From: Pseudomonadota bacterium
GTDB taxonomy: Bacteria > Pseudomonadota > Gammaproteobacteria > Burkholderiales > Burkholderiaceae_C
Direction of reading: 5' to 3'
NCBI GenBank assembly: GCA_019351955.1
Contig: JABBOE010000007.1
Coordinates: 1-43,172, forward strand
Length of the DNA: 43,172 nt
The notes under the pieces: model-generated
Databases searched by the model: none
The model's input: only the letters and a program-made list of their open reading frames with translations
What the model was told of the DNA's origin: nothing
Made by a program: the position numbers and the translations under genes
Shown here: in pieces, positions 84 through 25,077 of the stretch
Position numbering within the stretch: the stretch's first letter is position 1
How the letters are laid out: each line of letters opens with the position of its first letter

Positions 84-343
84 ACCGTCCTTTGCCGATC
101 GATTCCCCTCCCCTTTTCGCAACGAGCGCAAAAGCTGCCCGTCCCGCTCAATGCGCCTGGACTCACCGCCGTGGAAGCACGCTGCCTACCGCCCGTTAGG
201 ACCCTTTGCGGCAATGCCACGCAGCACTGCGCAGCGCAGGTGCCACAGTCATTCGGTCTTACGCCAGCACCCAAAGCGGAAACGGCAAGCACTACGGCTT
301 CGATATCTGCCCTTGGCCAAGGCTCCCAATTGGCGTGCGCGGC

Positions 344-2277: not shown

Positions 2278-3258
2278 ATGATCAAGCTCCCAACGGGCCT
2301 CGCGATCTGTTATTCCGGCTACCGCGAAGGCCAAAGCCCTGTCGAGAAACAGTATCCATCACACGGTGAGATCGCCGAGGATCTAACCCTTTTGCGGGAC
2401 CGCTGGTCGCTCCTGCGCCTTTATGACTGCAGTGCACATGCACAGCGGGTTCTGGAGGTCATTCGACGGGACCGCCTTCCCTTTCGGGTCCTGCTTGGCG
2501 CCCATTTGGCCGCAGAAGTCAACAACCCCGCCTGCCCTTGGGGTGGCATGTACGCGGATCGACAACTTGAAGCGAACAGGGCCGAAAATGATGCCGAGAC
2601 GCAGCGTCTCATCGCGTTAGCCAGACGCTATCCGGATATTGTCTTTGCTGTTGCTGTTGGCAATGAGGCCATGGTCGATTGGACCGACCACCTTGTGCCC
2701 ATGGAACGGATGATTGCCCTTGTGCGTCGCGTCAGAGCACATTTACCTCAACCTGTCACCTTTTGTGAAAACTATATTCCATGGCGACACCAACTTTGGG
2801 ATCTTGCCGCTGAACTGGATTTCATCTCGCTGCACACCTACCCGGTTTGGGAATACAAAAACGCTCATGAAGCGATTGACTATACGCGGGACAATTACTA
2901 CAGCGTGGCAAGCCTATATCACAATAAACCGGTTATTATCACCGAAGCAGGATGGACAACCCGCTCCAATGGCCGTGGCATTGAACCGCACCATGCATCC
3001 CAGGCATTTCAAGCCATCTATCTCGAGAATCTGCTGACCTGGACACGCAACGCAAATATCCTCACATTCATCTTTGAAGCCTTTGACGAGCCATGGAAGG
3101 GCTCAAACGACCCCCTTGAACCTGAGAAGCACTGGGGACTGTACAGCGTGGACCGGCAACCTAAGGCGTTTATCACGGGTTGGGACAGCGCGACGACCTT
3201 CGTCGCGCTTATGCCACCGGAGTTGCAGCCGATGGCGCCCAGCACCAACATCGGATAG
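2278..3258 (+). CDS. Divergent GH17-like glycoside hydrolase, cytoplasmic
   Basis: The 326-residue protein has a GH17-type barrel with acid/base Glu130 in AVGNEAMVDW and nucleophile Glu223 in IITEAGWTTR, followed by FEAFDEPWKG, which the other two GH17 proteins also carry. The nucleophile motif reads TEAGW rather than SETGW, so it belongs to a different branch. No signal peptide is seen. ATG 2278 is chosen because the conserved sequence starts right there (LPTGLAICYSG); a longer frame upstream overlaps the preceding GH17 gene and lacks conservation. It begins 17 bases after the stop of that gene, so they are likely translated from one message. The substrate is probably a short beta-1,3-gluco-oligosaccharide, by family and context. 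Confidence 0.82.
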   Translation: MIKLPTGLAICYSGYREGQSPVEKQYPSHGEIAEDLTLLRDRWSLLRLYDCSAHAQRVLEVIRRDRLPFRVLLGAHLAAEVNNPACPWGGMYADRQLEANRAENDAETQRLIALARRYPDIVFAVAVGNEAMVDWTDHLVPMERMIALVRRVRAHLPQPVTFCENYIPWRHQLWDLAAELDFISLHTYPVWEYKNAHEAIDYTRDNYYSVASLYHNKPVIITEAGWTTRSNGRGIEPHHASQAFQAIYLENLLTWTRNANILTFIFEAFDEPWKGSNDPLEPEKHWGLYSVDRQPKAFITGWDSATTFVALMPPELQPMAPSTNIG

Positions 3259-3312: not shown

Positions 3313-4380
3313 TTAGGGCGTCATATACCTCACGTAGGCCACATCCATCGTTTGACTATAATTCGCTGGAAGCGCTGAATTGTTTCCGTTTGGGGCGCCC
3401 AGGTTGCCTCCCACGGCCAAATTCATGATCAGGTAGTAGGTTTGATAAATCCCCCCGTATGGCCAAAAGGCAGATGCCGGCAGCAGAGGAGAACTTGGAT
3501 CGGCAGGGGTACAAACAAGGGTACTCTTCGAGCACGTCGTCAACACCGTATTATCGACAGCAAACTGGATCTGGGTCGCCGTCCAGGCAAGCTGATATAA
3601 ATGAAAGCTCGTATCAATGGGCGTTGAAAGCGTCGCCTTCACATACTGGTAGGCGTCCGTGTAGGCTGGGCTCGATACCCCCGATGGCAAATGAAAGGTG
3701 CTTTGAATCACAGAATTCTGCGTTCCAAAATACCTACTCAGCCATTCCACCATATCAATCTCGCCCCCCGCCGGCCATGTTGGCTGCGTTGCAAGCTGCG
3801 CGGTGGTTGGTGGGAAACTCTGCCCTGGCGATTGGCCAGGAAGAAGCCAAATTGCAGGCCAAGATCCGGTTCCCGTGGGAAGCTTCGCCTTCACTTCAAG
3901 AAAACCGGGCTGACTTAAATCAATGGCTTTCCGAGACGTGACCTTCGCTGACGTGAAGCTGTAGCCCGTCTGCGAATTGTCTGCCTTCCCCGTGATTACC
4001 AAATCTCCGTTCCCAACTGCGGCATTCGAGGGCAGGTAATATTCGGCCTCGTTGTTGCCCCATCCCGGGTTTCCGTACTCTGCTCCGTTTCCAGTTTCCA
4101 TGGCCCATAGACTTGTATTGGGCGTGCCGGACGGGTCCTGTGAAAAATCATCAAACCACACTGTCTTCGCATAACTCGCTGCGAGCCCGGTGCTCGGTAG
4201 TGAACCGGAACTACTGGTCGGTGTCGTCGTGGTGGTGCTGCTTCCACCCGTCGTTGTAGTATTCGTCCCTACGCTCGTGCTTGTCGGATTGGTGCTTGCG
4301 GTCGTGGTTCCCCCACCGCCTCCTCCGCACGCACTCACGACGACCGTACCAATTGCAATGGCCATTGCTGCTTTACGCAT
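3313..4380 (-). CDS. GH16 endo-beta-1,3-glucanase lipoprotein, surface or periplasmic
   Basis: About 355 residues. A short signal sequence ends in the lipobox VSAC (about residue 18 from the second Met), followed by six glycines and a Thr/Ser-rich linker of about 40 residues, then a GH16 domain. The domain shows WFDDFSQD, GSWPAIWLLPG, the catalytic GEIDMVE motif (Glu, Asp, Glu at about 206, 208 and 211) and the late MNLAVGGNLG strand. Two ATGs lie in tandem (4381-4383 and 4378-4380); the second is better spaced from AAGGAG. The lipid anchor and flexible linker suggest it faces polymer outside the cytoplasm, unlike the leaderless GH16 at 344-1285. It is the last gene of the minus-strand series, 159 bases after the GH81 gene. 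Confidence 0.88.
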   Translation of the reverse strand: MRKAAMAIAIGTVVVSACGGGGGGTTTASTNPTSTSVGTNTTTTGGSSTTTTTPTSSSGSLPSTGLAASYAKTVWFDDFSQDPSGTPNTSLWAMETGNGAEYGNPGWGNNEAEYYLPSNAAVGNGDLVITGKADNSQTGYSFTSAKVTSRKAIDLSQPGFLEVKAKLPTGTGSWPAIWLLPGQSPGQSFPPTTAQLATQPTWPAGGEIDMVEWLSRYFGTQNSVIQSTFHLPSGVSSPAYTDAYQYVKATLSTPIDTSFHLYQLAWTATQIQFAVDNTVLTTCSKSTLVCTPADPSSPLLPASAFWPYGGIYQTYYLIMNLAVGGNLGAPNGNNSALPANYSQTMDVAYVRYMTP

Positions 4381-4539
4381 CATCTCTCCTTTTTGCCTCG
4401 CTCGACGGCATATTCAAAACGCTGAACTATTGCCGCATTTATCGACTTTCGCATTGGGCAACGCTCGCCATGGAATATCAACGCTTTCTCCAGCCGATCC
4501 ATTTGAAATCCTAAGACCGCGCACACACTGATGGCCGAC

Positions 4540-6882
4540 CTAGTTTAGTTTGCTTTCGCTTATTTTCGGTGTCGCTCCGGGCGCGCTCACAACCATGCTC
4601 GTCAATGCGTGACGCGTTGCAACAAGCTTTGCCCCATCGCTGTATTTGACCGGGATTGAACTATCACTTGGATTAAAGGCAAGATACGTTTCTGCGCCAT
4701 CCGATTTTTTGAACACCGCGTACAATGGTGTATCCGCCGTGACTCCAAAGTCTGGCTCCCCCATGTATTGCAGACTTTTAATCCAATAATAAGCATGGGT
4801 GCGACTGTCTCCCGATTCGGAAGATCCCTGCGATTTCCAATCACCTCGCGCCACCTTTGGGAAGGCCAATGCCTTGTATTCCGCAAAGACGTCTTGCCAG
4901 ATATCCGATGGCGTGCCATCCGACATGCCACTGCTTGCGTACTGGGCCTCCTCTTTCTTTAAGCCGTCGAAGAAAAGTCTGATGTATTTTGGATCGCGGC
5001 CAAGATAAGTGGAGGCTGGAGTGATTGGCAAGAGATTAATGCCTTGGACTTCACGCGGATTCTGTGTCCACCACGTGTTGTACGCGTATTTATCACCAAA
5101 CACCTGAGCTGCCAATACCCGGTTGTAATTTGGCGCAAATACAATGTGATGAATATCAAACCAGTAATCGTCAACTGCCTGAACCTCTGTTGTATACAGA
5201 TAGATTCCGAGATTCCTGAGCTTGTCGTCGCCAGTTGCCGCCCCCCAGAAAATAAGACCGGCCCACGCATTGATCGCCTCTGACGATGATTCCTGATTAT
5301 TACCGTCATTCATCATCTCATCGCCACTGGCCCAGGAATGGCCCTCATAGGGGTCAAAATTTCGAAGATAAGGATCCCTCTTCAGGCCACGCCTGTCGGT
5401 CGCAATGTCGTGGACCAATTGATCGACCATCCCGCCCCAATGATCTTTCGCTGCCCATGTCGGGTCCCGCAGTGCCACTTGCGCGGCAGCGTTAATCCAG
5501 TAGCCGTAATGAAAATGATGGTCATTCATGTGGCTCACACTTCCATATTCCTGCGGGTAGCCGATAGTTGTTCCAATCGATCGATCCACCACAAAATATG
5601 TTGAGGAGTTCTTGCCCGAAAAAAAGTCCTCCATGTGCTGGGTCAACATGTTCTCTAGTTTCTGCGCCTCGCCCGCTTTGCCTTGCACTGCAGCGATATC
5701 CATAAGTTGCGCGGCGCGGCCGAGCCCCTTGCCAATCCAATAGGTTCCGGGGCCTTGGACACCAAATGCGCCATACATCTTCGCCACGTCGCCACCGAGC
5801 AGGGAGTCCACTCGGCTTCCGCCAACCGCAGCAGGAAGCTTCGGCCAGAACGGGATGATTCCGTGGTACGTCATCTGCGTAGTGAACTCATCCGCGGCGA
5901 GGAGTTTGATCGTGCCCCGGACACTTGGAAAAACATCGGGAAGCAGACCCGGAATGCTTTGATCAAACCATTGATGCGGATATAGCCCAAGAATTGGAGT
6001 CGTTTCGCCGCCCTGCATGGCGTGCGTTGTCACGACGAAGTGCGTAATGACTCGACTGGTCTTAGCGTCATAAGTCCACTCCGCCCGGGTGTTCGTAACA
6101 AATGCATAGGCATGCTGCTTAAACAGCTTGATCGTTTGCATCGAATCGTTGGGCAATGCCGCAACGGAGAAATAGCCGGAGTCAGCGGGAAGGTGCAAGA
6201 TCATTTCCCGCGGCGAAACCCAGGTGAAGCTGCACCCGGAAGGGCCAAAAACTGCATATGGGTGGCCATCAACCACAAAGCTCGCCACCCCCGATGGCAC
6301 CCCATGCTCAGCGATTACGGCGTCAGAGTCGAATCTCAGGCGCACGTCTCCGCGTGTGATTTTGTAATAGCTGAAGGGACTGCCATGAAGGATCGTGGCA
6401 TCAAATTTGTCACTCCCGTTGGCCATTTCGACCTTGACATTCCAGTCCCCATGCCCGGCCAGGCGAGCGTCGACGGGCTTGAATGCAGTCGGGTTGATCG
6501 TCAGTTCTGCACGGTGTGGCCAGATCACCTCCTTGTATCCACTCTTTGCCTGGCTCACAGTGGGGGTCGGCACGCCGACCTCGAAGCCGTTTGGCCCGGC
6601 GCGATAGCTAACTGGGGTCGCGAACAGCGGATAGGACCAGCGCTCAAACATTAAGGATGAATACCACTGGTTCGTAGGCGCCGCCATTTTCATCATCGCG
6701 GCCGTACGGTAATTGGCTTCTGGCGGCGACGGATCCGATGGCCCAAAAAAACCACCGGGATGCGGCGCTAAAAAATAGGCCCCAAGCCCATCCTTAATAG
6801 GGCTATTGGAGGTCGCGTTGGCTTGGGCCGGTCCAGTAAATGCAAACAGTGCCGCTACCGCAAAAACTTCCAGGTATCTCAT
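4540..6882 (-). CDS. GH81 endo-1,3-beta-glucanase, secreted
   Basis: The 780-residue protein matches GH81 in length and motifs. It has a signal peptide ending near PAQANA, the N-terminal TNQWYSSLMF motif, then HHFHYGYWI and SWASGDEMMNDG, followed by the catalytic NQESSSEAINAW box with its paired glutamates. GH81 enzymes are inverting endo-1,3-beta-glucanases. The ATG at 6880-6882 follows GGAGGT by four bases; a TTG just before it is less likely. It is exported, so it probably cuts polymer in the periplasm or outside the cell, feeding the porin and ABC transporter. It lies 51 bases downstream of the porin gene and is probably cotranscribed with it. Confidence 0.93.
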   Translation of the reverse strand: MRYLEVFAVAALFAFTGPAQANATSNSPIKDGLGAYFLAPHPGGFFGPSDPSPPEANYRTAAMMKMAAPTNQWYSSLMFERWSYPLFATPVSYRAGPNGFEVGVPTPTVSQAKSGYKEVIWPHRAELTINPTAFKPVDARLAGHGDWNVKVEMANGSDKFDATILHGSPFSYYKITRGDVRLRFDSDAVIAEHGVPSGVASFVVDGHPYAVFGPSGCSFTWVSPREMILHLPADSGYFSVAALPNDSMQTIKLFKQHAYAFVTNTRAEWTYDAKTSRVITHFVVTTHAMQGGETTPILGLYPHQWFDQSIPGLLPDVFPSVRGTIKLLAADEFTTQMTYHGIIPFWPKLPAAVGGSRVDSLLGGDVAKMYGAFGVQGPGTYWIGKGLGRAAQLMDIAAVQGKAGEAQKLENMLTQHMEDFFSGKNSSTYFVVDRSIGTTIGYPQEYGSVSHMNDHHFHYGYWINAAAQVALRDPTWAAKDHWGGMVDQLVHDIATDRRGLKRDPYLRNFDPYEGHSWASGDEMMNDGNNQESSSEAINAWAGLIFWGAATGDDKLRNLGIYLYTTEVQAVDDYWFDIHHIVFAPNYNRVLAAQVFGDKYAYNTWWTQNPREVQGINLLPITPASTYLGRDPKYIRLFFDGLKKEEAQYASSGMSDGTPSDIWQDVFAEYKALAFPKVARGDWKSQGSSESGDSRTHAYYWIKSLQYMGEPDFGVTADTPLYAVFKKSDGAETYLAFNPSDSSIPVKYSDGAKLVATRHALTSMVVSAPGATPKISESKLN

Positions 6883-6933
6883 CAAGACCTCCGCTCGAGG
6901 CGCCTTCTCAACGCCGATATGTGATGTTTTCGC

Positions 6934-8271: not shown

Positions 8272-8308
8272 TCTGATCTCCTTTCGTCTTCTCGCTACAC
8301 TTCCCGAC

Positions 8309-8322
8309 TGAAAGCGCTTTCA
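8309..8322. promoter_or_regulatory. LacI-type operator upstream of the porin gene
   Basis: Perfect 14-bp palindrome TGAAAGCGCTTTCA with the central CG typical of LacI/GalR operators. It lies 38 bases before the porin TTG start, in the gap to the GH30 gene. It implies that porin-GH81-GH16 can be transcribed from an internal regulated promoter. It is one of five copies in the window. Confidence 0.8.
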
Positions 8323-8441
8323 TTGAGGTTAGGTGAAGCCCCCCCTGCATGTCAATAGCAGAAATACCGAGTCGCGTAGAGCGTCATTCCTGGAATCGGT
8401 AGGGCCGACTCCTCGGCGCAACGATGCGGGCGCCGACACCC

Positions 8442-9794
8442 TCAGTGCGGCACCGCCGCGGCAAGGGACACAATTGCATGCCCGGGTATCTGCGTGAGGA
8501 ATCGGCTTCCATCCAGTCGAAGCATGAACGATACAGGGGCATCCGTTCGGTTCATCACAATCAGCACGGGCGAGCCGTCGGGGTTGCGAAATGCCGTGCA
8601 CTCGAGCGCTGCGACCGATGAGGCGCACAGGACACGACGTGCCCCGGGAACCACAAAGCGGCAGAAGTGCCCGATGTAATAAAAGGAACTCTGCTGGTAC
8701 AGCGCATCATGGGCTGTGTCGATCAAAATGGGGGCGCTGCAGAAATTTCCGACGTGATTGGGCCCACCCTGCAGGTCGAGAACGAGATTCCAGTCAATCC
8801 ACCCTACCGTCCACCGGTTGAGATCGTTGATCATCGAATGCGCATAACGCTCGCCGAGCGCCCAGCTGCCCATATGTGCGCCCCCTTCCTGACAGCCTTC
8901 GGTAAACAGCAACCGCTTTTCAGGCCAGGCATCGTGGACACGCTGAACATGATCGAAGTGATCCTCTCCATACCAATGGAAGCCGAGCCCCCATGCATAT
9001 TTCGAGGCCTCGGGGTCGCCGTAGATGACGCTCGCCCGATCAACCATCAAATCACGGTTGTGGTCCCAAACGACAATCTTGATATCAGCAAGTCCTGCCC
9101 GCACAAGCTCGGGTCCCAAATAGTCACGGATGAAATCTCGCTCCTCCTCGGCGGAGTAAACGCATGAATCCCAACGCTGTGTTGCCATTGGCTCGTTTTG
9201 CACCGTGACGCCCCAGATCGGAACCCCCTCTTGTGCGTAGGCTTCGATGAACCGCACAAAACACCGCGCCCAAGCGAGTCGATATTCGGGTCGCAGCTTG
9301 CCGCCATGGTTCATGCTGCCATTGGTTTTCATCCAAGCCGGCGGACTCCATGCCGACGCCAGCAGCTTGATGGGATGCCTTGTGACCCGCTGGGCCGCCT
9401 TGATGAACGGCAACAGGGCTTGCTGATCGCGGCTGATGTTGAAGCTGCGCAAATCCACGTCCCCGGTGGTCTGCACATGCGCATAATTATCAAGGGCGAA
9501 ATCGCAACTATTCATGTGCACACGGCAAAGGGCATAGCCGTGCCCGTCTTCAGCTGGCGTAGCGAAGTATGCCCTCAACGCAGCGTCGCGCTGGTTTGGA
9601 CTCAGTGCCATCCAAGATACTGCCCCTGCCTCTGTGAACGCCCCACCAAAGCCCTCGATGATTTGGAATTGATGCGTCGTGTCAACCGTCAGTACCGGCA
9701 ATCCCGGTGTTTCAACACTAGACGGCTCAAGGGCGGGCTGCTCCGAAAGCCGCGCCTCCGAGTCACGTGCCGTCAACACATAGCGAAGCAACAT
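8442..9794 (-). CDS. GH30 beta-glucosidase / beta-1,6-glucanase-like, cytoplasmic
   Basis: 450 residues from the ATG at 9794, which has AGGA seven bases upstream; the frame extends further upstream but without conserved sequence. GH30 hallmarks are IIEGFGGAFTEAGA near the N-terminus, SAWSPPAWMKTNG, acid/base Glu201 in TVQNEPMATQRW, nucleophile Glu299 in LLFTEGCQEGG, and a C-terminal beta-sandwich ending in AIVSLA. GH30 members include glucosylceramidases, beta-1,6-glucanases and beta-glucosidases. In a laminarin locus, removal of beta-1,6 branch glucose is the likeliest role. No signal peptide is present, so it acts after import. It follows the ABC ATPase gene by 156 bases. Confidence 0.87.
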   Translation of the reverse strand: MLLRYVLTARDSEARLSEQPALEPSSVETPGLPVLTVDTTHQFQIIEGFGGAFTEAGAVSWMALSPNQRDAALRAYFATPAEDGHGYALCRVHMNSCDFALDNYAHVQTTGDVDLRSFNISRDQQALLPFIKAAQRVTRHPIKLLASAWSPPAWMKTNGSMNHGGKLRPEYRLAWARCFVRFIEAYAQEGVPIWGVTVQNEPMATQRWDSCVYSAEEERDFIRDYLGPELVRAGLADIKIVVWDHNRDLMVDRASVIYGDPEASKYAWGLGFHWYGEDHFDHVQRVHDAWPEKRLLFTEGCQEGGAHMGSWALGERYAHSMINDLNRWTVGWIDWNLVLDLQGGPNHVGNFCSAPILIDTAHDALYQQSSFYYIGHFCRFVVPGARRVLCASSVAALECTAFRNPDGSPVLIVMNRTDAPVSFMLRLDGSRFLTQIPGHAIVSLAAAVPH

Positions 9795-9950
9795 GTCATC
9801 ATCCTGTAGATCCGTAAATTCCCTACACGATTGCCGACGTTTGGGAGGAGTTGCAGGGCTTGGCATCCGCTTGTGATGCGAAGCCGGAGCCATTCGATGA
9901 ATTGGGGTCCGCGCGGAACCACATACCACCAGCCACGATCACCATGCTCA

Positions 9951-11012
9951 TCACATGACGATTCGCCTTGCCGTTGCATCGAAGGCCAGAGCCCACGCAG
10001 GGTCTGGCACCAGCCCCACGGTCTGGCCCGCATCGCACGGCACAGCGCAGTCGCTGCGGATCGTGGCCGCCCAAACAGATTCAACACCTTCTACACGGAG
10101 GTAAATAATCGACGAGTCGCCCAGATGCTCAGCCAACTCGACCGTTGCGGGGATTCCCTGACTGGCTGGAACCACGGCGAGGTGCTCCGGGCGCACGCCC
10201 GCGCGCTGCGCGCTGTCAGCTCTTCGTCCAATTAGCGCCTGCCAAAGCTGACGCTGCGCCGCGGAGGCGCCCGAGCCAGGCTTGTCGATCAGATTTATGC
10301 GCGGGGTCCCGAGAAACGTCGCAACGAACTCATTTGCCGGGCTATTGAAAAGCGCCATGGGTGCACCAAGCTGCTCGATCACGCCTTTGTTGAACACAGC
10401 GATTCGATCGCCCATCGTCATGGCCTCGACCTGATCATGCGTTACATAGATCATGGTCGTCCCCAACTCCTTGTGTAAACGCGTCAATTCGATGCGCATA
10501 TTGACCCGCAAGGCCGCGTCGAGGTTTGATAGCGGTTCGTCAAACAGGAATACCTTGGGCTTACGCACAATGGCTCGCCCAATCGCAACACGCTGGCGTT
10601 CACCACCCGAGAGTTGCTTCGGATAAAAGTCCAGCTGATGACTAATGCGGAGAATCTCAGCAGCACGAGCCACACGCTCCTTTCGAATGGGTTTCGCTAT
10701 ACCTGCCATCTTCAGCGAAAAACCCATGTTCTCCGCGACCGTCATATGCGGGTAAAGAGCGTAGCTTTGAAAGACCATTGCCGCGCCCCGCTCGGCCGGA
10801 CGCACGTCGTTGGCTCTTGCGCCGTCAATCTCCAAGTCGCCTTCAGTGATGCTCTCCAAACCCGCAATCATTCGCAGCGTGGTCGTCTTGCCGCACCCGG
10901 ATGGGCCAACAAAAACCAGGAACTCTCCGTCGTGCACCTCGAGGTCGACCCCTTTGATGACATCGACACTGCCGTAACGCTTGCGCACGCCTCTTAAAGT
11001 CACCCGACACAT
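9951..11012 (-). CDS. ABC sugar transporter ATP-binding protein (MalK/UgpC type)
   Basis: 353 residues. Walker A GPSGCGKT at 36-43, signature LSGGERQRVAIGRA, Walker B FLFDEPLSNLDA, the H-loop in YVTHDQVEAM, and a C-terminal TOBE-type extension of about 120 residues as in MalK-like subunits. It powers the importer made with the two permeases at 12484-14264 and the binding protein at 14304-15578. The start at 11010-11012 has GGAG six bases upstream. It begins 17 bases after the GH1 stop, so the hydrolase gene sits inside the transporter operon, between permease and ATPase. Confidence 0.93.
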   Translation of the reverse strand: MCRVTLRGVRKRYGSVDVIKGVDLEVHDGEFLVFVGPSGCGKTTTLRMIAGLESITEGDLEIDGARANDVRPAERGAAMVFQSYALYPHMTVAENMGFSLKMAGIAKPIRKERVARAAEILRISHQLDFYPKQLSGGERQRVAIGRAIVRKPKVFLFDEPLSNLDAALRVNMRIELTRLHKELGTTMIYVTHDQVEAMTMGDRIAVFNKGVIEQLGAPMALFNSPANEFVATFLGTPRINLIDKPGSGASAAQRQLWQALIGRRADSAQRAGVRPEHLAVVPASQGIPATVELAEHLGDSSIIYLRVEGVESVWAATIRSDCAVPCDAGQTVGLVPDPAWALAFDATARRIVM

Positions 11013-11029
11013 ATCACGCTCCAATCGAT

Positions 11030-12394
11030 TCAGCCAACTGCGACGGATTTGTCGGGTTGTGAGCTGAGGAAGTTTTGGTACCACAGGGCGCTGTCTTTGA
11101 GGGTTCGGCGCTGGGTTTGGTAGTCGACATGCACGATGCCAAAGCGCTTGGCATAGCCGCTTGCCCACTCGAAGTTGTCGAGCAGGCTCCACACCATGAA
11201 ACCGCGCAGGGGCACGCCTTGGTGCAGGGCCTTGCCCACGGCGGCGATGTGGTTGGCGATATAGCGCATGCGTGCGATATCGTGGACCCGTCCATTGACG
11301 AGTTGGTCCTTGAAGGCGGCCCCGTTTTCCGTCACGTACAGGGCCGGAGTGGCGTAATCGCGGTGCAAACGCACCAGCAACTCGGTGAGGCCCTCGGGGT
11401 AGACTTCCCAGCCCATGTCGGTGATCTCGGCACCGCTGTCGTGCGGATCTCGGGGGCCGGAGGCGCTGAAGACGGCGCGCGAGTAGTAATTCACGCCGAG
11501 GAAATCCATCGGGGTCGCGATGATGGCCATGTCGCCGTGTTCAATGCGCGGGGCATCCCCGCCCAGGAAAGCCAGCACATCCTCGGGATAGGCCGCCTTG
11601 AAGAGGGGGTCCATATACCAGCGCACCAAGCGGCCATCCTCCAGATGGGCGCGTGCCAGATCCTCCGCAGCACTGGAGGCGGCTTGGATGGGAGCGAGAT
11701 TGAGCACGATGCCCAGATCACTCTGGATGCCCAGCGTGCGCAACGCTTGCACGGCCATGCCGTGGCTGAGCAACAGGTGGTGTGCCGCTTGCATGGCCAC
11801 GCCCCTGTCGCGCACCCCCGGGGCGAAGATGCCCGTTTCATGCCCGAGGATGGACTGCACAAAGGGTTCGTTATGCGTCGTGATCGACACCACACGGTCG
11901 CCAAGTCGCTGGGCCACGCCGCAGGCGTACTCGACAAAGCGGTGCACGGTGTCGCGACTCGCCCACCCGCCCTTGTCCTGCAGTGCCTGGGGCAGATCCC
12001 AATGATTGAGGGTCAGATGCGCGCCAATGCCGCGCTCGAGCAGTCCATCAACCAGACGGTCATAAAACGCCATGCCCTTGGCGTTCCATGCGCCTTCGCC
12101 CAAGGGCTGCACGCGTGGCCACGCCACCGAGAAACGGTACGCATTGACCCCGAGACTGGCGATCAACTCCAGATCCGTGGCCCACCGACGATAGTGCTCA
12201 CAGGCCACATCCCCGCTGCTGTTATCGGCAATCGCACCGGGCAGTCGGCAAAACGTATCCCAGATCGACGCGCCCCGCCCGTCCTCCGCCACCGCCCCCT
12301 CAATCTGGTACGCGCTCGTCGCCACCCCCCAGATGAAACCGTCCGGAAACGCTGTCGAGTGTGCAAACCCGTCAACCGCACCGTTGCTGTACAT
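11030..12394 (-). CDS. GH1 beta-glucosidase, cytoplasmic
   Basis: 454 residues, typical for GH1. FPDGFIWGVATSAYQIEG marks the N-terminus, LNHWDLPQALQ the middle, acid/base Glu176 lies in THNEPFV and nucleophile Glu356 in YVTENGAAF; the C-terminal MVWSLLDNFEW motif contributes the sugar-binding Glu and Trp. It releases glucose from the non-reducing end of beta-gluco-oligosaccharides. No signal peptide is present. ATG 12394 is chosen as the closest start before the conserved FPDGF; a weak GAGG lies 14 bases upstream. Its last 55 coding bases are repeated exactly at the left edge of the window. It lies in the ABC transporter operon. Confidence 0.93.
   Translation of the reverse strand: MYSNGAVDGFAHSTAFPDGFIWGVATSAYQIEGAVAEDGRGASIWDTFCRLPGAIADNSSGDVACEHYRRWATDLELIASLGVNAYRFSVAWPRVQPLGEGAWNAKGMAFYDRLVDGLLERGIGAHLTLNHWDLPQALQDKGGWASRDTVHRFVEYACGVAQRLGDRVVSITTHNEPFVQSILGHETGIFAPGVRDRGVAMQAAHHLLLSHGMAVQALRTLGIQSDLGIVLNLAPIQAASSAAEDLARAHLEDGRLVRWYMDPLFKAAYPEDVLAFLGGDAPRIEHGDMAIIATPMDFLGVNYYSRAVFSASGPRDPHDSGAEITDMGWEVYPEGLTELLVRLHRDYATPALYVTENGAAFKDQLVNGRVHDIARMRYIANHIAAVGKALHQGVPLRGFMVWSLLDNFEWASGYAKRFGIVHVDYQTQRRTLKDSALWYQNFLSSQPDKSVAVG
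11040..11094 (-). repeat. 55-bp exact inverted repeat, right copy
   Basis: Reverse complement of bases 1-55, within the 3' end of the GH1 gene. The 10.98 kb between the copies holds the GH16/GH17 cassette and the distal half of the minus-strand series. Recombination between the copies would invert that block. Confidence 0.95.
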
Positions 12395-12483
12395 CGTTGC
12401 TATTGCATCCTCATGGTAGAAATGCGCAGTGTCTGATCGCCATCTGATCGCACGAAAAGCAGGAATACGGCCACTCCATTGCC

Positions 12484-13326
12484 CTACTTGACCGCGCCCG
12501 CCGTCAGTCCCGATATCAACTGGCGCGACGAAAACACAAAGAGCACGATGAGTGGCAGTGTTGCAATGGCAGACCCGGCCATGAGTGCACCCCATTGAGT
12601 ATCCACTGGACTTTGCAGACTGCGCAGGGCAAGTGGCACCGTATACATGTCAGGTGACCGCATCACAATCAATGGCATGATGAAATTGTTCCAGGACGCG
12701 ATAAATGTGATGAGGCCAAGCGTGCCAATGGCAGGCCCCAATAGAGGAAGCACAATGCGCACGTAAATGCCGATTTCCCCACAACCATCCATGCGGGCTG
12801 CCTCCACAAGCTCACGTGGAACCGACGATCCGATGAATTGGCGCATTAGAAAAATGCCAAACGCGCTTGCTGCACCCGGCACATAAAGCGCACGTGGCTC
12901 GTTGATCCAGCCCAATGCATCCATAATCATGAATGTGGGAATCATGTTCATGAACTGAGGCAAAAGCATTGTCCCCATGACAAGAACGAAAAGAATATTT
13001 TTAAGGCGAAACTCAAACATTGCAAACGCATAACCAGCCATCGAGCAAAATAGCAGCGTCAACGCCGTTGATGCGAGTGCAACGTAGAGACTCCAGCCTA
13101 AGTTCTGCCAAAATGGAATCGTCGACACTAAAATATCAATATTGCGTACGAGATATCCACTAAAATATACCGGTGGCGGAACGCTAAAAATTGACGTACG
13201 CGAATGCGTGGCAAAAACAAACATGAAATAAAATGGCGCCAGCATAATTAATGCACCGATCCCAACGATACCGTAAGCAAACCACTTTCCGGCATTTCCC
13301 TTGTTTGGATTCATTGCGGGCCTCAT
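12484..13326 (-). CDS. ABC sugar transporter permease (MalG/UgpE type)
   Basis: 280 residues with about six membrane segments, the first at GIVGIGALIMLAPFYFMFVF, and the cytoplasmic EAA loop VEAARMDGCGEIGIYVRIVLPLLGP that docks onto the ATPase. By length and motif it is the second, MalG-like permease. Its ATG overlaps the stop of the upstream permease by four bases (13323-13326), indicating translational coupling. The GH1 gene starts 89 bases downstream. Substrate is inferred from the surrounding beta-glucanases, probably short beta-glucan oligosaccharides. Confidence 0.92.
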   Translation of the reverse strand: MRPAMNPNKGNAGKWFAYGIVGIGALIMLAPFYFMFVFATHSRTSIFSVPPPVYFSGYLVRNIDILVSTIPFWQNLGWSLYVALASTALTLLFCSMAGYAFAMFEFRLKNILFVLVMGTMLLPQFMNMIPTFMIMDALGWINEPRALYVPGAASAFGIFLMRQFIGSSVPRELVEAARMDGCGEIGIYVRIVLPLLGPAIGTLGLITFIASWNNFIMPLIVMRSPDMYTVPLALRSLQSPVDTQWGALMAGSAIATLPLIVLFVFSSRQLISGLTAGAVK

Positions 13327-14264
13327 GCTGACCGATTACGTGGGCGAAACGCTAGATTCGTCAACCAAGTCAACAAAGCGACGAACGCAAACAAGACCCA
13401 CGACATTGCACTCGCTCCGCCGAAGTCATCAAAATCAAACGCTTCCCGGTAAAGATAAAGCGCAGTCGTTAATCCAGCCTGATCGGGGCCGCCGTGACCT
13501 CCTGTCAGAATAAAAGCTTCATCGAAGAGCTGCAGCCCGCCAATAACGCTCAACGTCACCGCGAAATACATCATTGGGCGGATGCTCGGAAGCGTTATAT
13601 TCCAGAACTGCTGCAAACTACTGGCGCCATCCATCGTGGCCGCTTCATAAATATCCTTCGGGATGGTCTGCAGTGCTGCGAGATACAAAACGACGTTGAA
13701 TCCGACATAGCGCCAAAACACGATCACCGCAATCGCCGGCTTTACATATTGCGGCCGCCCCAACCAATCAATAGGACCGACAGGAAGCAGGAGTCGCAGC
13801 ACCGGAATGTGGCTGAGCCCATGGAGCGCCTGGTTGATCAATCCATAATCTGTCGAAAATAAGGAGCTAAAAAGAATAGCGATCGCCACCGTCGATGTGA
13901 TGTAGGGCATAAAATAAACGCCAACAACTACATTACGAAAACGTTTGAACCCGGCCTGAATAAAAACGGCTAAAGGGATAGCGATCAAATGCTGAGGCAC
14001 TCCTGCGGCAAGCGCCAACCAGGTTGTGTTACCCATCGATTTCCAGAACCAGGGATCGCGAAGTGCAAATTCAAAGTTTCTCAAGCCCACAAAACTCATG
14101 GAAGCCAGGCCGCTTGCGGGCTCCCATGAATGAAAGGCGAGATACAAGGAAAATCCAAGCGGAAACAATCCAAAAATGATGAAAAGCGTGACGAACGGGC
14201 TGAGAAGGACATACGGAGCCCAAGCGGGCGAGAGTCGTAGGCTCTTCGGGATCTTCATGGACAT
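13323..14264 (-). CDS. ABC sugar transporter permease (MalF/UgpA type)
   Basis: 313 residues with six predicted membrane segments, beginning YVLLSPFVTLFIIFGLFPLG, and an EAA loop YEAATMDGASSLQQFWNITLPSIRP. It pairs with the MalG-like permease to form the membrane channel. It starts 39 bases after the binding-protein stop and overlaps the next permease by four bases. The base composition of this stretch looks more AT-rich than the GH1 gene nearby, but I have not calculated it. Confidence 0.92.
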   Translation of the reverse strand: MSMKIPKSLRLSPAWAPYVLLSPFVTLFIIFGLFPLGFSLYLAFHSWEPASGLASMSFVGLRNFEFALRDPWFWKSMGNTTWLALAAGVPQHLIAIPLAVFIQAGFKRFRNVVVGVYFMPYITSTVAIAILFSSLFSTDYGLINQALHGLSHIPVLRLLLPVGPIDWLGRPQYVKPAIAVIVFWRYVGFNVVLYLAALQTIPKDIYEAATMDGASSLQQFWNITLPSIRPMMYFAVTLSVIGGLQLFDEAFILTGGHGGPDQAGLTTALYLYREAFDFDDFGGASAMSWVLFAFVALLTWLTNLAFRPRNRSA

Positions 14265-14303
14265 GTCATGTGTTCTTCGGAAGCCGCAGCGGAGCTCTTT
14301 AAT

Positions 14304-15578
14304 TCAACGCCCAACACGCCGTTCAAGTAGGCTCTGAGCCTGAGCAAGCGATGCTTTGATCGATTTCCCCTCGTGCAGAACCTTGAACAATGCAGTGTTA
14401 ACAACCTCTGCGGCAAACGCGTCTTGGCTGTGAACCTGAACAGCTCTGATGTTGAGTGCTGCTTCGCGCCACAATTGGCGTGCTCTTTGGCCGCCTAAAA
14501 ACGGAATTGGATCGTCAAAAAATGGCGCATGGTAGGTGTTGACCAATACGGGAAAGGCATCTTCAGATTCAAAAGCCGCTAGCTGGCGCTTCGCGTTCAG
14601 AGAGAGGAGCTTGAGGAAGTCCCAGGCGTAGCGTTTCTTTGAGGCCGTTATGTTCTTGGGGAGAGCGAGGAATGACCCCCCGTACGCTGCCCAAGTTTTT
14701 TGGGGCAACTGGGCGGCGCGCCAGAGACCTTTTGTTTGAGGGGCTAACCAATTGCTCATGTGTCCGACAAGCCAGGCGCCCGACATCAGGGTCGCAATTT
14801 TTCCGTTTCGGATGCCTTGTGCCCAGTCAGTTGACCAGGCCTGGACCTGCGCATCCAGGCTGGCCTTTCGTATTTGAGCGGCCAACGTGAAACCCTCAAC
14901 AAACCGGCTTGTTGTTATTAGCGGTTGGCCGTTCTCATCGAAATACAGCCCTTGATTAGACTGCACGCCCGTGCGAATCAAAATGTTGACTACGTCCGAG
15001 GCGTTGGCGACGAGATAAGCGCCTGAAGCTCGCTTGAGCTTGATGCCAACAGCGACGAAGTTTTCCCAGGAATTTTGCAAATCCTCGATCGTAGAGCCAG
15101 CCTCTTGCAATATATCGTGACGGTACAGGAGTGTTCCCGGCCCAACGTCGCTAGGCGCGGCGACGACCGAATCGGTCTTGGTCGTCGCCTCGTCAAAGGC
15201 ATATGGCACAAATTCTGGCTTGAATGCTTCAATGCCAAACGGCGGCTGAGCCAAATTCTCGAGTCCACCGCCTCGGGAAAATCGACCCAGATAGCCCACC
15301 TCTATCGCCATTACGTCCGGCAGATAGGAGTCCGTGGCCAAGGCGGTCATCATGGCCGTATGGTGGTCGGTGATCTGCCGGCTGATCACTTCGATGTTGA
15401 GGTCTGGATGGATTCGCTTCCATGCGGGTATTGCCGCTCGGGCAATCGCGTCGACTGAGGGGTAGGCGGCCACGACGAGCGTTTGATCAGACGTTGAGGC
15501 GGTGCGGCCGCAACCCACCAAGCCGCCACTAACGCCAACGGCCCCTACGGCCTTAAGAAATTCCCGACGTCGATACAT
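14304..15578 (-). CDS. Extracellular solute-binding protein, ABC sugar importer (lipoprotein)
   Basis: 424 residues. The N-terminus MYRRREFLKAVGAVG carries a twin-arginine-like RRREFL motif and a lipobox GLVGC, so it is probably a Tat-exported lipoprotein. The rest resembles family 1 solute-binding proteins, with the DVMAIEVGYLGRFSRGG region near residues 90-105 and GKIATLMSGAWLVGHM near 235-250. It would deliver oligosaccharides to the permeases encoded downstream. It is the first gene of the transporter operon; a LacI-type operator lies 175 bases upstream. Confidence 0.88.
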   Translation of the reverse strand: MYRRREFLKAVGAVGVSGGLVGCGRTASTSDQTLVVAAYPSVDAIARAAIPAWKRIHPDLNIEVISRQITDHHTAMMTALATDSYLPDVMAIEVGYLGRFSRGGGLENLAQPPFGIEAFKPEFVPYAFDEATTKTDSVVAAPSDVGPGTLLYRHDILQEAGSTIEDLQNSWENFVAVGIKLKRASGAYLVANASDVVNILIRTGVQSNQGLYFDENGQPLITTSRFVEGFTLAAQIRKASLDAQVQAWSTDWAQGIRNGKIATLMSGAWLVGHMSNWLAPQTKGLWRAAQLPQKTWAAYGGSFLALPKNITASKKRYAWDFLKLLSLNAKRQLAAFESEDAFPVLVNTYHAPFFDDPIPFLGGQRARQLWREAALNIRAVQVHSQDAFAAEVVNTALFKVLHEGKSIKASLAQAQSLLERRVGR

Positions 15579-15950: not shown

Positions 15951-17015
15951 TCAGCGCGATGGAGCGGCAGTGGACTCGCGCACGATCAGGCGGGGGCTCG
16001 GCATGCTGAGCACCGGCCTTTCGCCATGAAGCAGTTGCAGCATGGCTGTGGCCGCAAGGGTGCCCATTTCGTGACTCGGCTGGTGGACTGTGGTGAGCGG
16101 AGGGATGGCGTAAACCGAGGGCTGCAAGTCGTCGAAACCAATTAGCGAGATGTCATCAGGAATGTGCAGTGCATGTCGGTAAAGTGCGAGGGCGGCCCCA
16201 AATGCCATCTGGTCATTGGCGGCGAAAATCGCAGAAAATTTCTTTCCTTCCCTCAACAGCCCTTCAACGGCGCGAAGACCACTCTCTTCGGAAAAGTTGC
16301 CAGGAACAACCAACTCTTCGTCGATTGCGACACCCCGAGCCCGCAAAGCTGCCCGATAGCCGTGTTGTCGCTCCAGGGCATCCTGATGTGCCGGATCACC
16401 GGCTATAAACACAATGCGCCGATGACCAAGCTCAATGAGGTATTGAGTGGCCTGCTCGGCTCCTTCAAAATTGCTGAAATGCAACGAGACGACATTCGGC
16501 GCCTGTAGCGAACGTCCGGTGATCACCACTGGCAGGTTTCTCGCCAATGAACACACATCCGCATCGTCGACGCGCCCATCAAGAATGATGATCCCGTCGA
16601 CACGGCGCGCACGCAGCAAATCAAGACACCGCGCCTCCTCCAGTTGGTTCCACTGACCACTGATGAACAGGGGCGTATAGCCAACCTTCTGGAACTCAAT
16701 TTCGATGCCACGCAGCGCAGCGCCATAAAACGGACTGTCGAGCGACTGGGTGACAACCCCAATACTCAGTGTACGTCCTCCAGCAAGCCCGCGAGCCACA
16801 GGATTTGGGATGAATCCTAATTGATCTATCGCGCTATTTACCGCTTGCCTCTTAACATCCGCAACACCCGCAGTGCCGTTAAGAATTCTTGAAACCGTGC
16901 TTGGCGAGACTCCTGCGGTCTTCGCCACCATCTCAATCGTGACAGGCAACCGCCTCTGCGAATCAATTTCTAGCTTGCCACTGATGGATTGACTTTTACC
17001 GGGCCTGGATTTCAT
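15951..17015 (-). CDS. LacI/GalR-family transcriptional regulator
   Basis: 354 residues. After about 25 polar residues comes the LacI helix-turn-helix, VTIEMVAKTAGVSPSTVSRILNG, with the hinge helix NPVARGLAGG, followed by a periplasmic-binding-protein-like effector domain to the end (LIGFDDLQPSVYAIPPLTTVHQP near the C-terminus). The recognition helix and the five TGAAAGCGCTTTCA sites nearby make it the obvious regulator of the locus, probably a repressor released by a glucan breakdown product. Start ATG 17013-17015 has AAAGG nine bases upstream. No copy of the operator is seen before its own gene, so autoregulation is not supported. Confidence 0.9.
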   Translation of the reverse strand: MKSRPGKSQSISGKLEIDSQRRLPVTIEMVAKTAGVSPSTVSRILNGTAGVADVKRQAVNSAIDQLGFIPNPVARGLAGGRTLSIGVVTQSLDSPFYGAALRGIEIEFQKVGYTPLFISGQWNQLEEARCLDLLRARRVDGIIILDGRVDDADVCSLARNLPVVITGRSLQAPNVVSLHFSNFEGAEQATQYLIELGHRRIVFIAGDPAHQDALERQHGYRAALRARGVAIDEELVVPGNFSEESGLRAVEGLLREGKKFSAIFAANDQMAFGAALALYRHALHIPDDISLIGFDDLQPSVYAIPPLTTVHQPSHEMGTLAATAMLQLLHGERPVLSMPSPRLIVRESTAAPSR

Positions 17016-17058
17016 TTCGATTTACCTTTATCTTCGACCATTGCACCCAAAGGTTTGC

Positions 17059-18171: not shown

Positions 18172-18346
18172 TCGGGGCGATCCCTCTCTATGTCTGGTCG
18201 TGTTGGACCCGATTGCATGGCTGAACGGGCCCCGGTTGTTCGGCATGCCAAAGCTCCTGCGTTGATCCACATGCAACAAGCCTAAGCCGCACGTGCGGGT
18301 AAATCCGGATTGGCGGCCACCGCTTTGAAAACTAAAAAGATCGGTA

Positions 18347-21713: not shown

Positions 21714-22704
21714 CCAGGTTCATCCGAAGAGAATTGGCAGTACGGGGCTCACTGATGCGTCGAAGGCGTACCAGTGGGCCTCTTGTCTTTTGGGGCGGGA
21801 CCGTGTTGAGCTGAGGAAGAAAGAGCGACATGCGGGTCTAAATCACGCATCCCGGAATCGGCCATTGCTTCCTGTCACGGCTGACGATGCGCGCATCAGG
21901 CCGTGCGCGCGATATCCATACCCCCAAGCCAAGGATGTAAGAGGCTGTAAGGGGTTGGACGAGAAAGCGCGGGCCAGCAGCAGCGGCGTCATCATCGATG
22001 AAAACCCCAACTACGCAATGCGAATAGGCGACCCTTACATGCTCACTTTTTTTGGCGAGCACGAGGCGATCATGTCCAGGTTGCGTTGAAATCGTACAGA
22101 TGGCTGCGCCACCCCGACCCGGGAACCACCGGTGACGCGTCGCGGCTCGCTTACTTGGGTGTTCGTCGCCATCCTGGTCGTCGCCGCGAAGTGGCCAATG
22201 CCTCTGCCATGCGATCCTTTGGCCATCAAGGACTGCCGGGGCCGGGCCGGAGTTACAACAGCACTTGGGGAATACCCTCTCTAAGGCATTGAATCCTTGC
22301 GATACATTCAAAATGAAAGCGCTTTCATTTTGTGCTGCGTCGGCGCCCTTCCCTGCGAAAACTACCCGCGCAGCTAGCTGCAATCCATTCTGGCCCTCGG
22401 TACGCGTTGATGCGCACAGTTTGCAAGCCTCTGCACTACGCCTTACGTTCGCAAGCCGCTCTGTGCGCTCGCGCGCGGCGCAGCGCCGAAGCCAACCATC
22501 ATGAAGAACCGGGCATGAAGGCCATAAACCCGACCCACAATCGCTGCACACGGTACCTGGCAGAGTTAAACCTCGGTACCGTCCCTGCCCAGATTGCAAT
22601 CAGCATGCTACCGCCCCAAGGCAGTGCTGCCAGCACGTCAAGCTGCCTGGCACCACGGTGGTCCGTCCATTGCGCATCCAGTCGCCTTAGCCTTGGAGCT
22701 TCCT
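21714..22704. other. Long gap before the symporter fusion gene
   Basis: About 990 bases. No frame resembles a known protein; open frames on both strands have unlikely composition, and one overlaps the operator at 22314-22327. It may hold decayed sequence as well as the leader of the fusion gene. Confidence 0.5.
22314..22327. promoter_or_regulatory. LacI-type operator upstream of the symporter fusion gene
   Basis: Perfect palindrome TGAAAGCGCTTTCA, extended by AAAA and TTTT to a 22-bp perfect palindrome (22310-22331). It lies 377 bases before the proposed TTG start, implying a long leader or an unseen small gene between. Confidence 0.8.
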
Positions 22705-25077
22705 TTGGCCTCTGAATCGTCCCGCTTATCAATCGCCGAAAAGATTGGATACGGTTCGGGGGACTTTGCGTCGAACTTGTTTTGGCAAATGTTTTCGATT
22801 TTCATTGCCAAGTACTACACGGACGTCTTTCTGCTCAGCGCTGCGACGATGGGAACCATGATGTTTGTGACGCGACTCGCAGACGCATTCATCGACCCGA
22901 TGATCGGCGCCCTTGCTGACCGCACGCACACCCGTTGGGGCCACTTCCGCCCTTACCTGCTATGGATGGCCGTTCCGATGGCGGCCACAGCCGTCCTGAC
23001 GTTCACCGTGCCCAGCTTTGGCGGCACAGCCAAGCTCGTCTACGCCTATGTGACCCTGAGCCTGATGATGGTCGCCTACTCGGCAATCAATATCCCCTAT
23101 TCCGGGCTGCTCGGCGTGCTGACACCGAGCTCCGCTGAGCGCACCAGCGTCTGCTCCTACCGCTTCGTGATGGCATTATTGCCCGTGTTCATCATTGTCA
23201 ATACGGCTCTGCCTTTAGCAACGCACTTTGGCGGCTCCGAGAATTCCCCGGCCGGTTGGCAGATGACGATGCTCATTTATTCGATCATCGCCATTGCCTT
23301 TTATTTCACGACATTCGCCATGACGCGGGAACGGGTCAAGCCTGAGAGGAGGAGCAAGGGATCCTTCCGCAGCGACATCAAGGATCTTGGGCACAATCGG
23401 CCGTGGATGATCCTTTGTATTGTTGGCGTTTCTGCGCTGGCCTACGCGAACATCCGTGGCACAGTCAGTATCTATTATTTTCAGGATGTCGTTCCAAACG
23501 GAAACGCCTATTTCGGCAGGGTCATGACAACGGGCGCCATCGCCTTCATCTTGGGCGTCATGGTGACCTCTCCTTTGTCCCGAGTGTTCGGCAAGCGGAA
23601 CTTCTATATGGTGTCGATGGCGCTATCCGCCGTCTTGACCTGTGGCTTCTATTTTGTCCCGCCGCAGAATATCGCCCTCGTGTGGGCTTCGCACGCCTTG
23701 ATCAGCTTTTGCGCAGCTCCGACTGCACCCCTTGTATGGGCGATGTATGCGGATACCGCCGACTATTCCGAGTGGAAGCACGGTCGACGGGCAACGGGCC
23801 TTGTGTTTTCCGCCGCCTCGTTCGCTCAGAAATTTGGCTGGGCCATTGGCGGCGCTGGAACCGGCTGGCTGCTGGCGTACTTCGGCTACCTGCCCAATGT
23901 TGCACAGAATCCGACAACCATCGTCGGTATCAAGCTGATGATGAGTTTCATCCCGGCGGTGGGTGCGGTCATTGCGGTCATTGCTCTGTGGTTTTATGAA
24001 CTTGATGAAGAGATGGTCACGCGCGTGAGCAAGGACCTCAGCGATCGGCGTGCACAAGACCGGCAGTCCACTTCTGAACCGGATCGTCCCGCCGCGCAGC
24101 ACCAAGCAGCGTTCCGCGAGAAGGCGCGACGTGTCCCGCAGCCTCACAGCGCCTTCGGATCTTCATCGGGTTCCCGGCCGGTTATGCAATCGCTGAATCC
24201 CGCGCTGGGGATGGATACGCCGTTGATATCGCCGCAAAAGCGTGCAGTGCTGCTTAAACAGTGTGACGAGATCCTCAGGACCGGCATTCACGGCTGGTGC
24301 TTCAGTCCCTACCTCCAGGGCCAAGGACCCGGCGCACCGGTCACCGAGCAGCAGATCCGCGCACGCCTCCAGCTCATCAGGCCGCACGCCGATTGGATAC
24401 GCACGTTCTCATGTACGAATGGAAATGAACACACGCCGCGCATCGCCCATGAACTCGGGCTGAAGACTCTGGCAGGCGCATGGCTTGGGTCCGATCATCG
24501 GGCCAACGTGTGCGAAATCGAAAACCTCATTCGAATCGCGCGCCTGGGTCATGTCGATCTTGCCGCCGTCGGTAACGAGGTACTGTTGCGCGATGATTTG
24601 CCGGAGCACGCGCTGCTGAGCTACATCCATGACGTCAAAGCGGCATTGCGCGACATTCCGGTGGGATATGTTGACGCCTATTACATGTTTGAAAAGTACC
24701 CACAAGTGACTGCTGCTTGTGACGTCGTTCTGGCGAACTGCTACCCGTTCTGGGAGGGCTGCTCGAATGCTCAGGCAGGCACTTGTCTACAAACCATGTT
24801 CAAGCGTGCAAAGGCCGCTGCCATGGGCAAGCCTGTGATCATCAGCGAGACGGGTTGGCCTGACAAAGGAAGTCCGTTTCAGCATGCCACGCCATCGGCC
24901 GACGGAGCGCTGTCCAATTTCGTCGAAACAGTCCGCTGGGCCAAGCAGGCGGAGGTCAAAATTTTTTATTTCGAAGCCTTCGATGAACCATGGAAAGCTG
25001 GCACCGAGGGTGACGTCGGAGGGCATTGGGGATTGTGGGATACAAATGGATTGCCCAAGTATTCCGGAACGCCCTGA
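22705..25077 (+). CDS. GPH-type sugar symporter fused to a GH17 glucanase domain
   Basis: One continuous frame of 790 residues. Residues about 10-433 form a 12-segment GPH (glycoside-pentoside-hexuronide) symporter, beginning KIGYGSGDFASNLFWQ, with RLADAFIDPMIGALADRTHTRWGHFRPY, the family signature. Residues about 434-510 are a polar, Gln/Ser/Arg-rich linker. Residues about 520-787 are a GH17 domain with Glu625 (AVGNEVLL) and Glu715 (IISETGWP), closely paralogous to the GH17 gene at 1316-2260. GPH symporters have cytoplasmic termini, so the hydrolase would sit on the inner face and cleave sugars as they enter. TTG 22705 is chosen because GGAG lies six bases upstream and conserved sequence follows; a TTG at 22594 lacks support. 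In-frame Met codons at 24184 and 24211 could give a separate GH17, but neither has a clear ribosome site. Confidence 0.88.
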   Translation: MASESSRLSIAEKIGYGSGDFASNLFWQMFSIFIAKYYTDVFLLSAATMGTMMFVTRLADAFIDPMIGALADRTHTRWGHFRPYLLWMAVPMAATAVLTFTVPSFGGTAKLVYAYVTLSLMMVAYSAINIPYSGLLGVLTPSSAERTSVCSYRFVMALLPVFIIVNTALPLATHFGGSENSPAGWQMTMLIYSIIAIAFYFTTFAMTRERVKPERRSKGSFRSDIKDLGHNRPWMILCIVGVSALAYANIRGTVSIYYFQDVVPNGNAYFGRVMTTGAIAFILGVMVTSPLSRVFGKRNFYMVSMALSAVLTCGFYFVPPQNIALVWASHALISFCAAPTAPLVWAMYADTADYSEWKHGRRATGLVFSAASFAQKFGWAIGGAGTGWLLAYFGYLPNVAQNPTTIVGIKLMMSFIPAVGAVIAVIALWFYELDEEMVTRVSKDLSDRRAQDRQSTSEPDRPAAQHQAAFREKARRVPQPHSAFGSSSGSRPVMQSLNPALGMDTPLISPQKRAVLLKQCDEILRTGIHGWCFSPYLQGQGPGAPVTEQQIRARLQLIRPHADWIRTFSCTNGNEHTPRIAHELGLKTLAGAWLGSDHRANVCEIENLIRIARLGHVDLAAVGNEVLLRDDLPEHALLSYIHDVKAALRDIPVGYVDAYYMFEKYPQVTAACDVVLANCYPFWEGCSNAQAGTCLQTMFKRAKAAAMGKPVIISETGWPDKGSPFQHATPSADGALSNFVETVRWAKQAEVKIFYFEAFDEPWKAGTEGDVGGHWGLWDTNGLPKYSGTP

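Follow-up and report, generated by a model that had tools for sequence, protein, structure and literature searches.

A GPH-type sugar symporter and a GH17 glucanase are joined in one gene in the window, the stretch of 43,172 nucleotides analysed here. The gene is a real, conserved fusion of a published type that is now found in a further bacterial group. With a probability of about 75%, its product is a bifunctional inner-membrane protein of a laminarin-type locus that combines GPH import with GH17 cleavage of laminari-oligosaccharides at the cytoplasmic face. The GPH half would import short laminari-oligosaccharides with a cation, and the C-terminal GH17 domain, which a flexible linker would keep at the cytoplasmic face, would hydrolyse the beta-1,3 links of the incoming sugars. 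The products would be consumed by GH1/GH30, glucokinase and the adjacent genes of glucose catabolism, with expression probably controlled by a local LacI repressor. The features that bear on this reading are collected in Table 1.

Table 1. Position, strand and basis of the fused gene, its parts and the surrounding glucan genes in the window
Feature	Position	Strand	Basis
GH16, no evident signal peptide	206..1285	+	domain match, by eye
Separate GH17A (61% identity to the fused GH17), by eye without signal peptide	1316..2260	+	
GH17B, second divergent GH17, start picked by the analyst, no signal peptide by eye	2278..3258	+	
GH16, lipoprotein-like N-terminus by eye	3313..4383	-	
GH81, signal peptide by eye	4540..6885	-	
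GH30	8442..9929	-	
Sugar ABC importer (ATPase, two permeases, binding protein) with GH1	9951..15578	-	
LacI-family regulator	15951..17015	-	
LacI-type operator-like palindrome TGAAAGCGCTTTCA	22314..22327	.	upstream of the fused gene
Shine-Dalgarno GGAG, 6 nt upstream of the TTG start	22695..22698	+	anti-SD energy -5.6 kcal/mol
Fused gene (GPH symporter, linker, GH17), 790 aa, TTG start	22705..25077	+	ORF, Pfam, NCBIfam, AlphaFold
MelB-like GPH symporter part, residues 1-436	22705..24012	+	Pfam, TIGR00792, AlphaFold, Foldseek
D60 and D64, aligned with MelB D55 and D59	22882..22896	+	Foldseek and alignment
Polar, disordered, unconserved linker, residues 437-511	24013..24237	+	alignment, dN/dS, AlphaFold
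GH17 (beta/alpha)8 domain, residues 512-790	24238..25074	+	Pfam, AlphaFold, Foldseek
E625, acid/base, equivalent to RmBgt17A Glu99	24577..24579	+	alignment
E715, nucleophile, equivalent to RmBgt17A Glu189	24847..24849	+	alignment

Reading frame and start

The gene reads as a single stop-free frame. The 5' end is known for 22 of the other fused genes: at the position of the TTG start, 12 of them carry ATG and 2 carry GTG, and the remaining 8 start at most 15 codons earlier, at a start codon picked by the analyst. The initial annotation described one polypeptide with a linker of roughly 75 residues and named a sequencing error joining two genes as one thing that would refute that description. 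The description holds, as the frame is open, both domains are matched by profiles, both folds are modelled and the linker spans about residues 437-511. A sequencing or assembly error that merged two adjacent genes has a negligible probability and is discarded. While four relatives do carry an unfused transporter, the identical frame is open in 25 genomes, a 96% identical relative (G021) encodes 790 residues with no indel, and both halves are under purifying selection.

Transporter half

The N-terminal half covers the whole MFS_2 model (PF13347, E 4.6e-101, Pfam) and scores 398 bits against TIGR00792 (gph, cut-off 231, NCBIfam), full-length matches above cut-off that place it among the GPH cation symporters. 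The AlphaFold model has 12 long helices (counted by eye), of which helix 10 is broken in two, and both ends of the symporter are predicted to be cytoplasmic from the model and from positive-inside counts. The top-scoring solved structure for this half in Foldseek is MelB (9oli_A, TMt 0.87). In a structure-based comparison, D60 and D64, invariant in 25 of 25 fused proteins, align with MelB D55 and D59, the latter presumably with a cation role as well. MelB D55 is a cation-site residue according to the title of structure 8fq9.

The entire transporter half, both aspartates included, is like MelB and other GPH symporters (TIGR00792), which by contrast have no GH17 domain. The sugar contacts D19 and D124 of MelB are asparagines (N24 and N129) in all 25 fused proteins, which makes the sugar specificity of transport uncertain. 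Most GPH carriers transport small sugars, and GH17 enzymes often prefer longer chains, so the imported sugar may not be long enough for the enzyme fused to it.

GH17 half and active site

The C-terminal half matches GH17 (PF00332) above cut-off at E 3.3e-11, over only positions 226-303 of the 306 in the Pfam model, and is modelled as a (beta/alpha)8 barrel. Its top-scoring solved structure is RmBgt17A (4wtr_A, TMt 0.86). Each of the 50 Foldseek matches listed, read by eye, covers one half or the other, and none spans both. The earlier statement that both catalytic glutamates are intact is correct: E625 and E715 correspond to Glu99 and Glu189 of RmBgt17A, for which excerpts of PMC11005184 give the catalytic roles. 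Together with W683, E684 and E761 they are invariant in the 25 fused proteins, W683-E684 being the Trp-Glu pair of the aglycone subsites.

The fused domain shares the GH17 barrel, the catalytic glutamates and the Trp-Glu pair with RmBgt17A, MlGH17B and the Glt-type GH17 transglycosylases. The position of RmBgt17A Tyr102 is by contrast leucine (L628) in 25 of 25 fused proteins, so the tyrosine of RmBgt17A-type transglycosylases is replaced throughout. In the same excerpts (PMC11005184), exchange of Tyr102 for Ala abolishes transglycosylation, FbGH17B, which is reported to release glucose, has Met at this position, and the Glt-type enzymes carry a C-terminal GT2 domain, unlike the N-terminal transporter found here. 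The residue at this position weakly favours hydrolysis over transglycosylation as the probable activity of the fused GH17.

Linker and topology

The AlphaFold model, built from 25 sequences, has a mean pLDDT of 81.4 and a pTM of 0.55, a value that leaves the mutual placement of the symporter and GH17 domains unfixed. The barrel is confident at about residues 510-790, and pLDDT falls below 50 at residues 454-506. Over the 25 proteins, the equivalent of residues 451-511 is rich in Ala, Pro and Ser and varies from 33 to 101 residues. Predicted inside loops of the window protein hold 26 Lys/Arg residues and outside loops hold 1 (21-30 and 1-5, respectively, across the 25 proteins). The maximum 19-residue hydropathy beyond residue 433 is 0.88 in the window protein and 1.56 among the 25, and no further membrane segment is seen by hydropathy after this residue in these proteins. 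Given the positive-inside loops and the lack of a later membrane segment, the GH17 domain should lie on the cytoplasmic side. This prediction agrees with the initial annotation, whose proposed mechanism, that sugars are cut as they arrive, is plausible. Channelling, or any kinetic coupling of transport to cleavage, would be a hypothetical addition to that mechanism.

Beta-1,3-glucan locus

The fused gene is part of a beta-1,3-glucan locus (Table 1). Upstream of it, between GH81 and GH30, there is also a putative outer-membrane porin (the analyst's label; Pfam gives no match). Downstream are an MGS-domain gene, eda, edd, zwf, pgl, glk, rpiR and pgi, of which glk, rpiR and the MGS gene are assigned by Pfam and the others by eye from sequence. 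Many of the same genes lie near the fusion in relatives, in varying order. The palindrome TGAAAGCGCTTTCA occurs five times with at most two mismatches, against 0.26 expected; one copy lies about 380 bases ahead of the start codon, and further copies are at 8309, 15753, 18347 (1 mismatch) and 19528. These copies may be operators of a local regulon.

Adjoining the fused gene at 19787-21670 is a lipoprotein-like repeat protein (DUF4369), possibly a glucan-binding surface protein. Relatives of this protein at three other loci (L052 250-2160, L056 6613-8388 and L059 480-2249) also hold a GH17B-like stretch.

Distribution and conservation

Sixty relatives were searched, 27 of them of the same genus. 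Within the genus, the fusion occurs as a single frame in 7 of the 27 (G005, G012, G013, G016, G018, G021 and G022), one genome (G017) carries just the transporter, and no close transporter match is found in the other 19, including two (G002 and G009) that carry GH17A and GH17B. The unfused transporter of G017 lies at 16886-18277 of locus L029, and its genome has no GH17 match at E 0.001 with the fused protein as query.

A scan of genome contigs gives 32 loci, two of which (L067 and L068) encode remote GPH carriers. The other 30 include 23 with the fusion (6 from same-genus genomes already counted, thus 17 further), four that are unfused (L055, which is G017, L056, L057 and L058) and two in which the gene is cut by contig ends (L059 and L060). 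At another locus, L065, only a decayed transporter remnant is seen (8142-8441), beside open GH17A and GH17B frames. The 23 fused loci, the window and G021 make up the 25 fused proteins, which are alignable across both domains; one (L049) has no 5' end. The fused loci are labelled Gallionellaceae, Nitrosomonadales, Rubrivivax, Paucibacter, Steroidobacteraceae, Betaproteobacteria and unnamed Gamma- or Proteobacteria. Among them, Paucibacter sp. KBW04 (L046) is an isolate; the other fused loci are from metagenome-assembled genomes (MAGs), of which the taxon labels may be wrong.

In evenly drawn, overlapping samples, scored at up to two candidates per genome such that divergent fusions could escape, no full-length match besides the genome itself is found in the order (0/398), class (0/368) or phylum (0/397). 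The GH17 search within the class matches 38 of 339 genomes, the own genome included. Among 77 GH17 frames from the order, class and GH17 searches (at most 30 loci per search, some duplicated), a long membrane-rich N-terminal part is present only in the two entries of the window's own gene, and the others are judged to have a membrane C-terminal part, to be free or to be cut by the end of the locus. Of the plasmid records, 445 match the fusion, none with a single place covering 80% of it, and 11 match the GH17 part; the annotation of the Runella, Vibrio and Haliscomenobacter plasmid regions names no transporter-GH17 fusion.

Selection on both halves is purifying, with dN/dS across nine pairs of 0.02-0.15 in the transporter and 0.04-0.31 in GH17; the linker is less constrained (0.16-1.15 in the eight computable pairs). 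In seven genomes of the window's genus, mean identity is 84% for the transporter, 68% for the separate GH17A and 60% for the fused GH17, which is less identical than GH17A in 18 of 21 pairs. This faster evolution suggests that the role of the fused GH17 may be specialised or relaxed.

Two other readings of the fused domain bear on these patterns. The linker may be a mere tether that keeps the enzyme near the membrane but uncoupled from the transporter, where it would also serve sugars imported by the ABC system. An unconserved, Ala/Pro/Ser-rich linker of very variable length and low model confidence is consistent with this reading, as is the ABC importer within the same locus; that the fusion is retained despite a separate GH17A in 10 of the 25 loci is not, and uncoupled tethering is held to be somewhat less probable than not. 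Alternatively, the GH17 domain could have lost catalysis and now serve the transporter as a sensor or regulator, for which the IIA domain of LacS offers a comparison. That the fused copy evolves faster in the window's genus would fit such a change, but the invariant catalytic and subsite residues and the purifying selection make it very improbable.

Possible internal starts and origin of the fusion

The initial annotation noted that the fusion reading would fail if the GH17 part were made only from an internal start. No convincing internal start is seen in the window gene: the linker ATGs at codons 494 and 503 have anti-SD values of -3.2 and +0.4, and the GTG and TTG codons of the linker have a Shine-Dalgarno match of at most 3 bases. 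Thus, the fusion reading stands.

Some relatives differ. Across the fused genes, 6 of 30 linker ATGs have an anti-SD energy of -7 kcal/mol or lower, compared to 6 of 635 other in-frame ATGs (9 of 30 and 11%, respectively, at -5 kcal/mol or lower). A linker ATG at -5.9 or lower is present in 9 of the 25 fused genes (L037, L038, L039, L043, L045, L061, L063, L064 and L066). Six of these nine sites start with the residues MS, like the free GH17A of the window, and the internal ATGs lie 53-82 residues ahead of the barrel motif, compared by eye to about 55 in that free enzyme. With a possible internal ribosome-binding site (RBS) and ATG in the linker, one gene may in some relatives give both a tethered and a free enzyme. 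No such site was found in Paucibacter sp. KBW04.

The possibility that two proteins are made from the fused gene, namely the entire fusion and a cytoplasmic, free GH17 begun in the linker, is considered open to doubt, at odds below even. Strong linker ATGs are enriched, and they occur in 9 of 15 loci with no visible separate GH17A compared to 0 of 10 with one, the window among the latter (Fisher 0.003, with thresholds set post hoc, related rows and some contigs that end near the gene). The internal site of L043 and L045 (-5.9) is stronger than the gene's own start (-1.9 and -3.0, respectively). By contrast, the site is missing in the window gene and in 6 of the 15 loci with a single GH17A, while that of L061 is elsewhere in the linker and is absent from the sister L048.

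Two gene layouts recur among the fused loci: GH16, MFS-GH17A and GH17B, or GH16, GH17A and GH17B with a separate MFS-GH17A. Free, adjacent GH17A and GH17B are found in L128, L130 and L132. On a Vibrio fortis plasmid (L141 7917-9729), a free GH17 and another gene, labelled 'glycosyl hydrolase', overlap by a few bases and may be an unfused GH17A-GH17B pair. On a plain reading, a transporter gene was read into GH17A, whose start partly survives.

Whether this occurred once is neither shown nor rejected by the GH17 trees, from which duplicate rows of the same genomes were removed. Free trees need 5 or 4 changes of state, and the fused domains form one group in 0% of 200 bootstrap trees; constraining them to one group costs 21 log units (AU p 0.167). 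Starred branches of the transporter tree force at least 3 changes of the fused state, a count that is not relied on since its rows include two near-duplicates and the contig-cut L059 and L060, labelled as unfused. A speculative and rather unlikely history is that, in Betaproteobacteria and some Gammaproteobacteria, the transporter gene ran into an adjacent GH17A with its own RBS, independently of the marine fusions. Lineages with only the fused GH17A would then make tethered and free enzyme, and those with a second GH17A, such as that of the window, would have lost the internal start and kept a purely tethered, faster-evolving copy.

Relation to published fusions

The initial annotation knew of no description of a transporter-linked GH17; this claim does not stand, as excerpts of two papers report such fusions. 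In those of Unfried et al. 2018 (PMC6246565), FbGH17b (FORMB_24740, AOR29491.1) of Formosa sp. Hel1_33_131 is described, with enzyme kinetics, as an N-terminal 12-helix MFS with a C-terminal GH17 that hydrolyses debranched laminarin and converts laminari-oligosaccharides to glucose. The fusion is stated there to be common among marine Flavobacteriia, and its authors knew of no description in other bacteria. FbGH17b resembles the window protein in domain order, in being encoded by one gene and in its laminarin locus; it differs in that it belongs to Bacteroidota with a SusC/D-type system and has Met where the fusion has L628 and RmBgt17A has Tyr. This comparison is by description, and the passages name no MFS subfamily.

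In excerpts of a 2023 study (PMC10108472), expression of variant 1 laminarin loci is stated for 11 of the 15 active Bacteroidota MAGs and for 7 of the 18 active gammaproteobacterial ones. Most of the loci of these 11 and 7 MAGs carry a GH17-MFS fusion, the passage being silent on which single MAGs do so. Like the window's gene, these fusions (Bacteroidota, SAR92, Luminiphilus and SAR86 MAGs) join a transporter to GH17 in laminarin loci, there expressed during a bloom. By description, they differ in being marine and, for SAR92, in loci flanked by sigma-factor genes rather than a LacI regulator and an ABC importer.

No report of a transporter-GH17 fusion in Betaproteobacteria was recognised among the open-licence PMC papers listed, and the words 'fused' and 'fusion' are absent from PMC11345257 and PMC12844025. 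What is new here is the Betaproteobacteria lineage, the GPH assignment and the possible internal RBS and ATG in some linkers. Transporter-glucanase fusions are thus extended from marine laminarin degraders to Betaproteobacteria with a MelB-like carrier, including an isolate, Paucibacter sp. KBW04. Whether joining the importer to the hydrolase accelerates sugar use, a suggestion of the 2018 authors, thereby becomes testable.
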